This document shows, piece by piece, positions 36,068 to 45,875 of a stretch of DNA of 53,178 nt. The translations under genes and the position numbers were made by a program. Source of the stretch: Myxococcales bacterium (GTDB lineage Bacteria > Myxococcota > UBA727 > GCA-2721815); contig PBLQ01000042.1 in the NCBI GenBank assembly GCA_002721815.1, forward strand, positions 1 to 53,178. The letters run 5' to 3'. Numbering within the stretch: position 1 is the stretch's first letter; every line of letters begins with the position of its first letter. The notes beneath the pieces were generated by a model. The model saw only the letters and a program-made list of their open reading frames with translations, had not been told where the DNA came from and ran no database searches.

Positions 36068-36610
36068 TTAATTTTGGGGCTTGGTTTTCTTTTGCAGCGG
36101 CTCAAAATTCAGCGCAGCCGAATTCACACAATAACGCAAACCTGTGGGTTGAGGCCCGTCGTCAAACACATGTCCCAAATGCCCGTCGCAACGATGGCAC
36201 AAAATCTCTTCGCGAAGAATGCCTAAGCTGCGATCCGCCTCCACTTCCACTGCGTGCCCATCATGAGGTGCGAAGAAGCTGGGCCAGCCGGTCCCGGATT
36301 TGAATTTGGTCTCACTGGAAAATAACGGAGCGCCACATCCCGCACAATGGTAGGTGCCCGGCCGCTTTTCGTCCCAGTACGCCCCCGTAAAAGGACGTTC
36401 GGTGCCTTTTTCTCTGAGCACATAGAACTGAAGGTCCGTTAAAGCCGCCCGCCATTCCGCTTTGGATTTCACGATTTTTTGCTTTTTTTCACCCTGGACC
36501 CCGGCCTTCGGAGGGTTGGGTTTGGTGGCATGGGCTTCATGGTTGGTACAGCCAGCGCCACAAATCATCCACAAAATGAGCGCAAACCCCCAATGGAAGA
36601 AATTTTTCAT
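36068..36610 (-). CDS. msrB: peptide-methionine (R)-S-oxide reductase, lipoprotein form
   Basis: A 180-residue MsrB carried on a lipoprotein signal (lipobox G-A-G-C, Cys21) with a Lys-rich linker to about residue 48. The catalytic domain has structural zinc Cys pairs C89-x-x-C92 and C138-x-x-C141, the GWPSF substrate loop and the active-site Cys161 in RYCVNSAAL. Export to the envelope implies repair of oxidised surface proteins rather than cytosolic ones. A reductant of the periplasm would be needed, and none is encoded beside it. Single-gene unit. Confidence 0.94.
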
Positions 36611-39305: not shown

Positions 39306-39345
39306 GCCCGGCAGACCTGTGCTCCGGTCTGTCGGGCATTTTAAT
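39306..39345 (+). terminator. terminator after S8 protease
   Basis: A 12-base-pair stem GCCCGGCAGACC / GGTCTGTCGGGC (one G-U pair in RNA) with an 8-base loop, followed by ATTTTAATATT. It also lies at the end of the opposing gene. Confidence 0.85.
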
Positions 39346-42160
39346 ATTCCGCACAAATGTATTCTTCGTTGCCCACCACAAAAGGTGCATTAAACTCTCG
39401 TGCACCAATGTCGCGGCTCGCACCTTCTTGAACCGGAAAAAACGCCTCTTGAAAGTCTGCATAATCAACGGCGGTTGCGGCATCGATAAACGATTGGCCA
39501 GGGCTGGGGCAGCCGAATTCGGAAATCACCCCATTAAAATCATCTTCAACGCAGCCCGAACCGCTCTCATCAACGTCACAGAATTGTTCACAGCATCCGG
39601 GCAAAGCTTGAAAGTTCGAACAGCCCACTTCATTTTCACAGTAGGTGAAAGCATGACAATAACCACCATTTTGGCAGTCATCACTGCGCAGGTAAACCAG
39701 GTGGTTGCCCACCAGATTATTGGAATCGTTTTCACGCATGCTCCCCAGCCGAATGGCCGTGGTTCTCAACAATCCCATCACCAAGTTGTTTCGCACAGAC
39801 AAGCCGTTGCCACCCAGCTCCATTCCCGTTTGATATTCCCATTCTAAAGGCGCGATGATCGTGTTGTGATCGACGAAAGGCCCATTCGCGCAAGGGGTTA
39901 GGGAAAGATTAAAGGTGTCCATCTCAATGCCCGTCTCAAAATATCCTTCGATATAATTGAATGCGACAAAGCTGCATGACCCAGAGCTTTCAATGGCCGT
40001 GCCTTGGTCTCCATCGTTGGGGGTTTCGGTGGTCAATGTATTTTGCGTGATGGAGGTGTGATCATAACTGCTCCGGATGAGATAAGAGAGCTCACTATTA
40101 CCAGAATTAGCTCCCAATCTGCCGCGCATGTCGTTGCCATGTAAATGAACCCAACCCGTCCCATTGCCGTGCTTAATATCAAAACCTTTTTTCACATTGG
40201 TGATCGTCAGGTTTCGAATGGTGATATCGCCTTCCAGCCCTCCTGTTTTGATCTCCATAAAATCAGAGCCACCCGTTTGCTTGAAGAACACATTGGCACC
40301 ATTCATCGGCTCTAACACCACGGCGCTTTCTCTATCGACATCGATCTCTTCTGAAACGGGGTACGGGTTGTCTGCATCGTTGGCGGGCAAGCGAATCAAA
40401 TGAATGTCTTCATCGTTGAGCAACTCCTTCAAACGGTCCACCATCTCTTCACCATCACTCACATTGGTGATGACATCGCCACAAGTTTCAGTGTTGTAGC
40501 TCGAACAATCATCCGAACAGGTCAGCTCTGCATTATTATCTGGCGGCATGAAGCCCAGCGCCGCACAATTGATATCTTCAGGCATGACATCCCCATCGCA
40601 TCGCTCACTGGCTGGGTCCACAATTCCATCACCGCAATAAGACGTTTCACCGGGCTCCCATTGGCAAGAAAGGTTACAAACCTGGCATGAGGCCTCACCG
40701 TACGGGCACAATTCATTGGTCAAATCACCTGAATCGCAAGCTTCACCGTGCTCATCATTCAGCTCGCCATCGCCACAATACGAGCAATCATCGCGACAAC
40801 CGTCGATCCCGCCGGCCGCACCGTCACATGTTTCACCGAAATCTGCGTTAATGGAATCATCGCCACACTTAGGTGCCGCGGTGCAATCTGAATTGCACCC
40901 CTGGTAGGTCCCGGTATTGTCAGCCGCCCCCAAGTCGCACACTTCGAAATCCGGTTCGAGATCGCCATCACCACAATAAGGGGCCAATGTGCACGCGGAG
41001 GTGCACCCCCCATAAGAACCGTCATTATTGATCACCCCAAGGTCACAATCCTCTTGCGGCGAATGAAGTACGCCATCACCACAAAAAGCGGTTTCACCCG
41101 TCACCTTTTGGCATGCTGAGCCGCAAACCACACAGCTGGTCAAACCGTAATCACAACTTTCGGTTTCTTGATTTCCATCATCGCAATTTTCATCGAATTC
41201 GGGTTCTTCCACATTATTACCACAGGGTGAACCGCATTCACCACTGGCATCCGATTGGCCGTCGGGGCACTGACACTCAAAAGACCCAACGGTGTTCACA
41301 CATATTTGGTCGCTGCGGCAATTGCTCGCAGCTTCGGTGGTGCATTCATCCACATCTTCACAGACGTTATTCACCAAAGTGTACCCTTCGACGCAATCCG
41401 CGCAAGACGCTGCCTGGCCATTGCTGGCGGGAACACAGCGATAGGGAAAGCTGCATACCAAGGGGCAAGAATTGGAATCGGCGCCCGCATCCGGTGGGTG
41501 AACGACACCTGCGTCATGCGTTAGGTGCCCAGCGTCGTTGGATTCGTCCAAATGAAAACCTGCATCGGATGGATGTGTGGGTGTGGGGTTCATGCCGGCA
41601 TCCAGGAGGGCACCCAAGCCTGCATCATGCAGTGCATTCGTTCCCTCCCCAGCATCGGGTTGATTGGCCATCATCCCCTCTCCCGCATCCATATCGGATG
41701 GCAGGATTTCGTTCACACCGCCATCCAAGGCCACTTCGACACCGCCCGGGCCTGCGTCGGGGTCGGGTAACGCCACAAAAGCGCTGAGCTCGATGGTCAC
41801 AATCACTTGGCTTCTTTGTTCCACGGTAAACCGACCCGTCCCGCTGGAAATCATCATGCCTTTTCGAAAAGCCTGGGCATGCAATTCAACCATTTGTTGG
41901 TCCCATGCCTCCGGTAACAACAATTCAATGGATTCTTCGCCTTGGGTTGAGAAAGGCTTGGGGCTTTCGGGGATTTTCAACTGCGCCAAAACCTCGCCCA
42001 CAACATCGGTCATTTTTAAATCGATTTGATCGGGCCAGTGAGCGGGCGGGTAATTGAACACCACACGAACACTGGTGGCATTTTCTTGCACTGAGGGCTC
42101 CGTACAACCCAAGGCCATCACCAGCATCAACAAAAATTGAACCCGTAACCAGATTGGCAT
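39341..42160 (-). CDS. DUF4215 / EGF / beta-helix lipoprotein
   Basis: A 939-residue lipoprotein (lipobox A-L-G-C, Cys19) with GAAGGGG before the ATG at 42160. After an N-terminal beta domain (about 25-130) comes an Asp/Ala/Pro-rich linker with repeated DAG triplets (to about 225). A cbEGF unit (DVDECTTEAASNC) follows, then five or six myxobacterial Cys repeats of the DUF4215 type (YCGDGxLEPxFExCD, about 305-560), and a right-handed beta-helix-like C-terminal region (about 560-939). Beta-helices of this type bind or cleave polysaccharide in some relatives, but no catalytic residues can be assigned. Likely surface-exposed. Confidence 0.88.
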   Translation of the reverse strand: MPIWLRVQFLLMLVMALGCTEPSVQENATSVRVVFNYPPAHWPDQIDLKMTDVVGEVLAQLKIPESPKPFSTQGEESIELLLPEAWDQQMVELHAQAFRKGMMISSGTGRFTVEQRSQVIVTIELSAFVALPDPDAGPGGVEVALDGGVNEILPSDMDAGEGMMANQPDAGEGTNALHDAGLGALLDAGMNPTPTHPSDAGFHLDESNDAGHLTHDAGVVHPPDAGADSNSCPLVCSFPYRCVPASNGQAASCADCVEGYTLVNNVCEDVDECTTEAASNCRSDQICVNTVGSFECQCPDGQSDASGECGSPCGNNVEEPEFDENCDDGNQETESCDYGLTSCVVCGSACQKVTGETAFCGDGVLHSPQEDCDLGVINNDGSYGGCTSACTLAPYCGDGDLEPDFEVCDLGAADNTGTYQGCNSDCTAAPKCGDDSINADFGETCDGAAGGIDGCRDDCSYCGDGELNDEHGEACDSGDLTNELCPYGEASCQVCNLSCQWEPGETSYCGDGIVDPASERCDGDVMPEDINCAALGFMPPDNNAELTCSDDCSSYNTETCGDVITNVSDGEEMVDRLKELLNDEDIHLIRLPANDADNPYPVSEEIDVDRESAVVLEPMNGANVFFKQTGGSDFMEIKTGGLEGDITIRNLTITNVKKGFDIKHGNGTGWVHLHGNDMRGRLGANSGNSELSYLIRSSYDHTSITQNTLTTETPNDGDQGTAIESSGSCSFVAFNYIEGYFETGIEMDTFNLSLTPCANGPFVDHNTIIAPLEWEYQTGMELGGNGLSVRNNLVMGLLRTTAIRLGSMRENDSNNLVGNHLVYLRSDDCQNGGYCHAFTYCENEVGCSNFQALPGCCEQFCDVDESGSGCVEDDFNGVISEFGCPSPGQSFIDAATAVDYADFQEAFFPVQEGASRDIGAREFNAPFVVGNEEYICAEY

Positions 42161-42334: not shown

Positions 42335-42784
42335 ATGCCCAAAGCACTTCTCGCTCTCTCCTTCACCCTTCTGGCCAGTGTCGCGCTTTGGGCTAAGGCC
42401 CAAGAAAAGCACCCCTTGCAGCCCGCGCAACAAGTGGTTTCGCTGAATGCTGCAATGCACCGCCACGCCCCCAGCAAAAAAGCGGATGTGCACATTTTAG
42501 CCAGAGGTGACAACGCTTTTATGGCGATGCTCAAAATGGCCCCCAAAGCCAAAGTGCCTTTGCACCGCGACAAAACCGAAGAATACATTTATATTTTAGA
42601 GGGCAGCGGCACCATTCAAATCGATGGCAAAAAAACAAAACTCAAAGCCGGCGATGCCGTTTACATGCCGGCCAATGCCGAAGTCACTTTTGAAAATGGC
42701 GACAAACAATTGGTGGGCTTGCAAGTCTTTGCTGGGCCACAACCTGCGGACAAATATTTAAAATGGCCTATGGCAGCGAAATAA
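42335..42784 (+). CDS. exported cupin-domain protein
   Basis: A 149-residue cupin with an N-terminal signal peptide (about residues 1-22, ALWAKAQ). The cupin motifs are recognisable: PLHRDKTEEYIYILEGSG (motif 1; His and Glu metal ligands) and GDAVYMPANAEVTFEN (motif 2, with Asn in place of the usual His). A metal site may therefore be incomplete. The ATG at 42335 was chosen because AAAGG is 9 bases upstream; a TTG two codons earlier is less likely. Its 3' end overlaps the CULT-protein start by 22 bases. Substrate unknown. Confidence 0.85.
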   Translation: MPKALLALSFTLLASVALWAKAQEKHPLQPAQQVVSLNAAMHRHAPSKKADVHILARGDNAFMAMLKMAPKAKVPLHRDKTEEYIYILEGSGTIQIDGKKTKLKAGDAVYMPANAEVTFENGDKQLVGLQVFAGPQPADKYLKWPMAAK

Positions 42785-43194
42785 CAACGCCCTTCGTTTG
42801 GGCCAAAGATCGCGACAGCAAAACGGGCGGCGTCACTTCCACACAAAAAGTGAAACCCATTCGCCAAAAAGAAGAACCCGATTTATGGTGTTGCGGTGTA
42901 TGCAATCACCCCATCACCGAAACGCGCAAGGCTATTTCAGTGGCGGGCAACCACAGCCATCGCTTTATGAATCGTGCAGGCTTTCTTTTTGAGATCGGTT
43001 GTTTTGGGCAAGCGCCGGGCTGTGATCACCAAGGCGTTCCCGAAGAAGACTACTCCTGGTTTCCCGGCCACACTTGGCGCTTTGCGCTGTGCGCCGGGTG
43101 CCACACCCATTTAGGCTGGCGTTTCGACGGTGAGGGTACCGGCTTTTGGGGTTTGATTTTGGAGCGATTGGTGCAACGTTTGGGTGACGCTTAA
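42763..43194 (+). CDS. CULT-domain protein (bacterial cereblon-like)
   Basis: A 143-residue protein matching the CULT domain (Cereblon domain of Unknown activity, binding cellular Ligands and Thalidomide). Zinc ligands are Cys44-x-x-Cys47 and Cys110-x-x-Cys113. The ligand cage has Trp99, Trp105 and Trp119 with spacing 6 and 14, equal to Trp380/386/400 of human cereblon, and the block YSWFPGHTW...LGWRF is strongly family-like. Bacterial relatives such as the Magnetospirillum single-domain CULT bind thalidomide, but their natural ligand and role are unclear. It starts within the cupin gene, suggesting translational coupling. No signal peptide. Confidence 0.9.
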   Translation: MAYGSEITTPFVWAKDRDSKTGGVTSTQKVKPIRQKEEPDLWCCGVCNHPITETRKAISVAGNHSHRFMNRAGFLFEIGCFGQAPGCDHQGVPEEDYSWFPGHTWRFALCAGCHTHLGWRFDGEGTGFWGLILERLVQRLGDA

Positions 43195-44102: not shown

Positions 44103-44957
44103 TTATTGAGGCCCAGCATCGAAAGATTCTGCCCCTGAAGCGAGTTGCCACGGAATTAATTTAGCACTGTTTTGACTTTTTTCATCAGACCACTTTTGTA
44201 ATTGTTCAATGCGTTCTTCGGGTAACGGATGTGACGACGCAAACTTTTCGAACAACTTCAGGTTTTCGGGGCTTTGATCTTTCATTTTTTGAAAGAAATG
44301 AATGGCGCCACGGGTATGGCCGTATTTTTTTGCCACCAAATCTAAGCCAAAGGCGTCGGCTTCGATTTCATGTTCTCGTTGTTTTTTTCGGAGGGAGAAC
44401 ATTTCAAAAAAATCAAACACCATGGTTTGTGAAATGGTGCCGCCAGTGGCCATTTGAAAAAAAGCTTGGACGAGCATCCAGGACAAACCTTGTGATAAGC
44501 CTTGAATGTGGTGTCGGTGCTTGAAGTGGCCCAGTTCATGCGCCAAGACAAAAGCCAATTCGTTTTCGGTTTCGGTCATATCGAGCAACCCCGTGGTTAC
44601 CCCGATGTAACCGCCTGGGAAAGCAAATGCGTTGGGCGATGCGTCGTCGAGCAAAAAACTTTTGTAGGCCAATGGCGCTTCTTCCCAATGTTCGGCAAGT
44701 CCGTCGATCAATTTTTGGACACGGATGCCCCGTCGTGCCTCTTCTACTTGCGGCAATGCTTTCACAAAAGTTTCAAAGATACGGCGTTCATGATCCGGCT
44801 GGAGGCGTTCCAAAATGGCGCCGAGCATGAAACTAAACCCAAAATACATGACGGCTAAAAAGAAGACCAATGCGCCCACCATGATCAAAAGATCATCCAG
44901 CAAGCTCTCTTTGGGGCTGTTCACTTCAGGGTTGGGCTCGCGCATCTGTGGTTTCAT
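44103..44957 (-). CDS. M48 family membrane metalloprotease
   Basis: A 284-residue zinc protease with one N-terminal transmembrane segment (about 22-47). The zinc motif is H140-E-L-G-H144 and the third ligand is Glu197 in E-I-E-A-D, as in M48/HtpX-BepA-type enzymes. The LLDMTETENELAFVLAHELGH order is typical. It could be a membrane or periplasmic quality-control protease. Its ATG overlaps the stop of the membrane YbjQ protein by four bases (ATGA), so the two are translationally linked. Confidence 0.9.
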   Translation of the reverse strand: MKPQMREPNPEVNSPKESLLDDLLIMVGALVFFLAVMYFGFSFMLGAILERLQPDHERRIFETFVKALPQVEEARRGIRVQKLIDGLAEHWEEAPLAYKSFLLDDASPNAFAFPGGYIGVTTGLLDMTETENELAFVLAHELGHFKHRHHIQGLSQGLSWMLVQAFFQMATGGTISQTMVFDFFEMFSLRKKQREHEIEADAFGLDLVAKKYGHTRGAIHFFQKMKDQSPENLKLFEKFASSHPLPEERIEQLQKWSDEKSQNSAKLIPWQLASGAESFDAGPQ

Positions 44958-45442
44958 GAAACCACCGGTTCTTGGTTTGAGGTCGCCAGATAACGAACGG
45001 CCGTCCCAAACACCAACACCTCAACGCCTGCGGTGCCGTTTTTGCCGCCCTTCGAAGCAATGGTTGAAGTTTCGATGCGGACATTGATCACCGATCCATA
45101 CCCGTGCTGCCTTGCTTGGGCTTTCATTCGCAACACTGCTTCACGACGCCCACGATCGAGGAGGGTTTCAAAAGCCTTCACCCTTCCGCCAAAAATAAGA
45201 CGAAGCCCCGCAAGGATGCGCTTAAAATAATCTAACGAGACCACCACCGATCCAGTCACAAGCATGGATTGGTCCACCGCCCCTTGGCCTTCAGGTACAA
45301 AGTTACACACCACCATCTGTCGCGTTTGCAGTTCGCGTTTTCGAATGGATTTGAAATGTTTCTTTTCCGCCAATGAACCGCACACGTACCCCACGATAAA
45401 CAGGAATAAGGTGAAGCCAATGGACGAAAGCGCATCAAACAT
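44954..45442 (-). CDS. membrane-anchored YbjQ/UPF0145-domain protein
   Basis: A 162-residue protein with an N-terminal transmembrane helix (about residues 8-24) followed by a YbjQ-type domain (UPF0145, 'heavy-metal-binding' DUF74). Landmarks are GSVVVSLDYFKRILAGLR, LLDRGRREAVLRMKAQARQHG and SVINVRIETSTI. YbjQ proteins form pentameric rings; the metal-binding name is unproven. Translation starts 5 bases after the stop of the preceding YbjQ gene and overlaps the M48 protease start. Function unknown. Confidence 0.88.
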   Translation of the reverse strand: MFDALSSIGFTLFLFIVGYVCGSLAEKKHFKSIRKRELQTRQMVVCNFVPEGQGAVDQSMLVTGSVVVSLDYFKRILAGLRLIFGGRVKAFETLLDRGRREAVLRMKAQARQHGYGSVINVRIETSTIASKGGKNGTAGVEVLVFGTAVRYLATSNQEPVVS

Positions 45443-45447
45443 CTTGC

Positions 45448-45786
45448 TTACCTTTGTACCGTCACAGCCGTGCCATACACGTACAATTCAGATGCGCCTG
45501 AGGCCACTGAACTCGTGGCGAAACGAACATTCACCACCGCATTCGCGCCCACACTTTGCGCCTGGGCCACCATTCGGGACACCGCTTCGTGACGGCTCTC
45601 TTCGAGGAGTTCGGTGTAGCCCTTCAGTTCACCCCCCACGATATTTTTGAGCCCCGCCATAAAATCGCGGCCCACGTGTTTGGCGCGGACAGTACTGCCG
45701 CTCACGATGCCATGAAATTCAGTAATGGTTTTACCAGGCACGTTTTCGGTGTTGCTCAACTCAATGGGAAAATCCATTTTCATCAT
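45448..45786 (-). CDS. YbjQ family protein (UPF0145)
   Basis: A 112-residue soluble YbjQ domain. The ATG at 45786 is supported by GGAGG 5 bases upstream; a longer frame to 45831 lacks support. Landmarks are GIVSGSTVRAKHVGRDFMAG, LLEESRHEAVSRMVAQAQSVGA, AVVNVRF and the YVYGTAV strand. It is a paralogue of the next gene, lacking its membrane helix, and heads a probable four-gene transcript (ybjQ - TM-ybjQ - M48 protease - tagged secreted protein). Function unknown. Confidence 0.9.
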   Translation of the reverse strand: MMKMDFPIELSNTENVPGKTITEFHGIVSGSTVRAKHVGRDFMAGLKNIVGGELKGYTELLEESRHEAVSRMVAQAQSVGANAVVNVRFATSSVASGASELYVYGTAVTVQR

Positions 45787-45875
45787 AAAGCCTCCTCCGT
45801 CAAAAGACCTTACGACAAAACCGGACCACATCCAACCTTCAACAGGCTGGGGCGATGCATTTTAAGGGCGCTGGC

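Follow-up and report, generated by a model that had tools for sequence, protein, structure and literature searches.

The thalidomide-binding domain of human cereblon is a CULT domain, and bacterial proteins of this group were described in 2015 by Lupas et al. (PMC4287342), who list Haliangium, Desulfonatronospira, Leptospira and others as carrying CULT and place Yippee/Mis18 and MsrB alongside it as beta-tent relatives of the same overall fold family. MsCI4 (MGR_0879, from Magnetospirillum gryphiswaldense, PDB 4v2y) is a bacterial CULT protein of a single domain, and its cage, like that of human cereblon, binds glutarimides and uridine (PMC4449219); published structures have captured glutarimides and deoxyuridine held in this cage (PMC4449219, PMC8900816). 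One third of the MsCI4 domain needs a bound ligand in order to fold, and the pocket unfolds without ligand (PMC4449219). In mammals, C-terminal cyclic imides act as the cereblon degron, according to PMC11974815 and PMC13001092, the latter citing Ichikawa 2022 and Heim 2022, and these imides arise either through damage or through the action of the methyltransferase PCMT1 (PMC11974815; PMC13001092).

The window analysed here comprises 53,178 nucleotides (positions 1 to 53,178 of contig PBLQ01000042.1) from a Myxococcales bacterium. An ORF on its forward strand (42763..43194) encodes a protein of 143 amino acids that is, judged by its sequence, a stand-alone CULT protein belonging to the known bacterial group; it shares the architecture of the delta-proteobacterial CULT proteins of Lupas et al. 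2015 (PMC4287342). The best phmmer matches among PDB sequences were all to MsCI4, named 'cereblon isoform 4' (4v32/4v2y), with near-full-length constructs giving E values of 1.6e-20 to 4.2e-20 over query residues 22-138 (1.6e-20 for 4v32, an MsCI4 variant, and 3.8e-20 for 4v2y). Vertebrate cereblons ranked next, at about 1e-9 to 3e-11, with human cereblon at about 1e-9. The CULT domain spans about residues 41-138 and no other Pfam domain scored above its cut-off; by Pfam and ORF length, the protein is essentially the CULT domain alone. Pfam found no LON domain in it, which argues that it is not cereblon proper, the substrate receptor of an E3 ligase, and it likewise differs from human cereblon in having neither the DDB1-binding part nor a ubiquitin system. 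No signal peptide was seen, and the N-terminus is not hydrophobic. When the window is translated in all six frames, the pattern CxxC-(40-70)-W-5-W-4-CxxC-5-W is seen a single time, at this ORF, indicating that the match is not due to chance.

Membership in the Yippee/Mis18 family was considered and rejected, since the match to PF03226 lies under the curated cut-off (15.5 versus 26.6 bits), and Pfam reported no SelR (MsrB) match in the protein. A separate MsrB gene (SelR, E 5.4e-52), encoding a beta-tent relative with a lipoprotein-like N-terminus, lies at 36068-36610, 6 kb from the CULT gene and on the opposite strand. A beta-tent fold of the CULT protein is implied by its homology to solved structures; an AlphaFold2 model (mean pLDDT of 42, from an alignment of two sequences) was unusable for checking the fold. 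A cage that appeared collapsed in such a model would not count against a CULT identity, because the MsCI4 pocket itself unfolds when no ligand is bound.

A preliminary description of this locus had proposed a bacterial CULT domain whose zinc site and tryptophan cage are both intact, the four zinc cysteines and three cage tryptophans being kept at the human spacing of 6 and 14 residues, and alignment with MsCI4 and human cereblon bears this out. The zinc motifs are C44-x-x-C47 (42892..42903), aligned with its MsCI4 counterpart, and C110-x-x-C113 (43090..43101), which corresponds to human C391/C394. The cage is formed by Trp99 (43057..43059; MsCI4 W79, human W380), Trp105 (43075..43077; MsCI4 W85, human W386) and Trp119 (MsCI4 W99, human W400), the last encoded together with the cage-floor residue Phe121 at 43117..43125 (residue equivalences from the alignment and PMC8900816). 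Zinc motifs, cage tryptophans and spacing are identical in MsCI4. Human cereblon shares the zinc and cage residues, the spacing and the floor Phe (F402), whereas the MsCI4 floor is Tyr101. In an alignment of 72 sequences (71 bacterial CULT sequences from the surveyed genomes plus MsCI4), all four zinc cysteines, all three cage tryptophans and Phe128 are unchanged in 72/72, Asn70 is retained in 71, and 71 have either Phe or Tyr at the floor position. A complete cage is therefore normal for the family and is to be expected of any member. Taken alone, the window protein adds little, its cage being the usual one for a bacterial CULT domain; the value of the survey lies in this invariance of cage and zinc site and in two findings discussed below, namely that CULT has no conserved partner gene across distant genera and that some genomes with CULT, among them this one, apparently have no PIMT, the enzyme behind cyclic-imide degrons in mammals.

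Beyond the cage, the divergence of the window protein from the published bacterial proteins is of an ordinary kind. The position of human P352 and MsCI4 P51, which lines a groove beside the cage (PMC8900816), is occupied by Arg71 (42973..42975), where 70 of the 72 aligned sequences have Pro; within the N-P-x-G of the inserted hairpin, N70 and G73 are retained. Position 96 is Asp, where human cereblon has E377 and MsCI4 has E76. His103 stands in place of human Y384 and MsCI4 Y83, the human residue belonging to the core and stabilising the bound state (PMC4449219), and His is found at this position in nine bacterial sequences of the alignment. An extra pair of cysteines, Cys80 and Cys87 (43000..43023), is present in 45/72 sequences; human cereblon has Thr and Leu at these sites, and MsCI4 has only the first Cys. 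An HxH motif (H64, H66) occurs in 53/72, and the two features occur together in 38/72. The HxH motif and the cysteine pair are traits shared by much of the bacterial group. A tree of the 72 sequences had few informative columns and placed the window sequence without firmness, its nearest neighbour by path length (G054) belonging to another family.

Bacterial CULT proteins had been taken to be rare. A profile built from 12 of them found CULT in 45 of the 195 genomes of the window's phylum (26 of 90 genera) and in 29/297 genomes of a second phylum, that of a Desulfobacterales relative; together with the 2015 description of the group (PMC4287342), these counts contradict that view, and bacterial CULT proteins are not unusual in the window's phylum. 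The same profile found no match in 15 genomes of other families within the window's own order. No CULT matches were found in viral contigs, phages or plasmids, and spread by phages or plasmids was rejected on these grounds. A second CULT-like stretch in the genome of the window (G000:C59:59477-59611, L002; 44 residues, E 8e-5, 42% identity) lies antisense to a zapA-like ORF and was missed by the profile, and it is probably a chance match.

With regard to function, the window protein is most likely a putative cytoplasmic reader of cyclic-imide or uracil-type ligands. The protein would fold as a zinc-pinned beta-tent whose three-tryptophan cage could hold an imide-type ring, be it a glutarimide, an aspartimide, a C-terminal cyclic imide, or uracil or uridine; such binding has been demonstrated for MsCI4 and human cereblon and is expected here from identical key residues. 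The natural job would be to read cyclic-imide marks left by spontaneous Asn/Gln damage at protein ends. This role is favoured because the imide-binding cage residues are conserved without exception, and the mammal-type ligand, a C-terminal cyclic imide, is our best guess. The likely changes to the groove beside the cage introduced by Arg71 and Asp96 count against a cyclic-imide reader, as do the apparent lack of PIMT described next and the binding of uridine, which makes a nucleoside ligand conceivable. On balance, we give about an even chance to the full reading in which a stand-alone cytoplasmic CULT protein recognises cyclic-imide marks and overlaps the upstream cupin gene by chance adjacency with translational coupling.

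If cyclic imides are the ligand, their source in this organism may differ from that in mammals. A genuine isoaspartyl methyltransferase (PIMT/Pcm) seems to be absent from the genome: the best match has an E value of 7e-4, whereas most genomes that do encode the enzyme give 1e-50 or better. With 98% of the genome present, it is possible but unlikely that a PIMT gene lies on a missing contig, and a strong match is likewise absent from 14 of 15 other genomes of the window's order. Because no convincing PIMT was found here, the enzymatic route of mammals is probably missing and imides would arise without it. Across the phylum, strong PIMT matches are present in 40/45 CULT-bearing and 96/150 CULT-less genomes (Fisher p 0.0014), a co-occurrence counted by hand and confounded by kinship and genome size. 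A strict link between PIMT and CULT was rejected, given that five CULT-bearing genomes, this one included, have no strong PIMT match. In such genomes the ligand, should it be a cyclic imide, would have to arise without PIMT, which brings the question of what CULT originally bound within experimental reach in bacteria.

The cage could instead hold uracil or uridine, with ligand-induced folding signalling pyrimidine or RNA turnover, and this nucleoside or nucleobase sensor is the alternative that survives best, although we consider it unlikely. MsCI4 binds uridine in the pose of thalidomide and about as tightly, and binding brings about folding of the domain (PMC4449219); moreover, a related CULT gene (L003/L057) stands head to head with an ORF that, judged by eye, resembles adenosine deaminase at its N-terminus. 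The authors who reported uridine binding could nevertheless find no biological context for it (PMC4449219), and our neighbour comparison detected no nucleotide genes recurring beside CULT and none beside the window gene. More generally, when the neighbouring ORFs were compared all against all, none of their families recurred beside CULT in distant genera, which is what one would expect if CULT works alone and binds a general ligand.

A narrower proposal has bacterial CULT proteins acting as degron readers that hand damaged proteins with cyclic-imide ends to a protease such as ClpAP, which, if true, would mean that they do the work of cereblon in an ancestral, ubiquitin-free form. Across four genera from two families of the window's phylum, clpA lies within about 6 kb of CULT and convergent to it (L058:8739-11382; L059:7799-10437; L060:1218-3916; L056:7802-8491), with clpS beside clpA where the contig reaches. 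This proximity may be plain shared ancestral synteny and is a hint only, and in the genome of the window ClpS is encoded on a contig other than that of CULT; we regard a handover to ClpAP as rather improbable.

MsrB and GFA, which are fold relatives of CULT, are enzymes. The subgroup that carries the HxH motif and the cysteine pair might likewise have a catalytic function, and the frequency of these residues in the bacterial alignment, together with the Thr and Leu that human cereblon has at the two cysteine sites, is what speaks for it. The residues are not invariant, however, MsCI4 belongs to the same group and lacks the second Cys, and we know of no reported activity of CULT proteins; an enzymatic role is accordingly judged very unlikely.

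The gene immediately upstream of CULT (42335..42784, forward strand) encodes a cupin of 149 amino acids (Cupin_2, PF07883, E 1.7e-15) with a strongly hydrophobic N-terminus that is a predicted export signal. Its 3′ end overlaps the 5′ end of the CULT gene by 22 bp (42763..42784), an overlap found only in the window copy and not in the CULT proteins of Lupas et al. 2015. No Shine-Dalgarno sequence was seen by inspection before the CULT ATG, and with the overlap this makes translational coupling of the two genes plausible. The preliminary description had coupled CULT to an exported cupin as a clue to its ligand, and the overlap and the export signal stand while the clue does not. Flanking sequence of up to 6 kb was searched around 73 other CULT genes (44 from the window's phylum and 29 from the second, with several flanks cut by contig ends and none from a same-genus relative), and no cupin homologous to this one was detected. 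With an export signal on the cupin and none seen on the CULT protein, the cupin gives no ligand clue. The comparison of neighbourhoods across these genomes thus returned no conserved adjacency, and the pairing is a local feature of the window's genome.

Clear cupin orthologues with 50-54% identity were found in four other genomes; G002 and G017 have no CULT gene, and G039 and G040 carry CULT and the cupin on separate contigs. The orthologues share the same KYxxW end site, so the end of the window cupin is itself normal. Its motif 2 is without the canonical His (PANAEV), which makes metal catalysis doubtful. The shared strand, the overlap and the apparent want of a separate ribosome-binding site would fit two proteins that work together on a single small molecule, for instance a cyclic imide, a hydantoin or a uracil derivative, but the neighbourhoods, the unlinked orthologues, the one-sided export signal and the altered motif 2 leave little room for it, and the cupin was rejected as a functional partner of CULT. 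Most likely the two genes became neighbours by chance in one lineage and are translationally coupled, without sharing a pathway. Least credible of all is a minus-one ribosomal frameshift at the heptamer T TTA AAA (42757-42763) that would yield a cupin-CULT fusion exported to the periplasm: the heptamer has the phase required to link the cupin frame with the CULT frame immediately ahead of the CULT ATG, and a modest RNA hairpin can form downstream of it, but heptamers of this kind, counted in any phase, are found about 5 times per kb of the window, so this one is likely due to chance; A/T-rich stretches commonly precede start codons, and none of the relatives compared shows the same arrangement.

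Two further features of the neighbourhood were recorded. Divergent to the cupin gene, 39341-42160 encodes a large Cys-rich protein that is predicted to be secreted and has an EGF-like match and many 'CGDG...E.CD' repeats. On the other side of CULT, at 44954-45831 of the window, two tandem genes of the YbjQ family (PF01906) adjoin a gene for an M48 peptidase.
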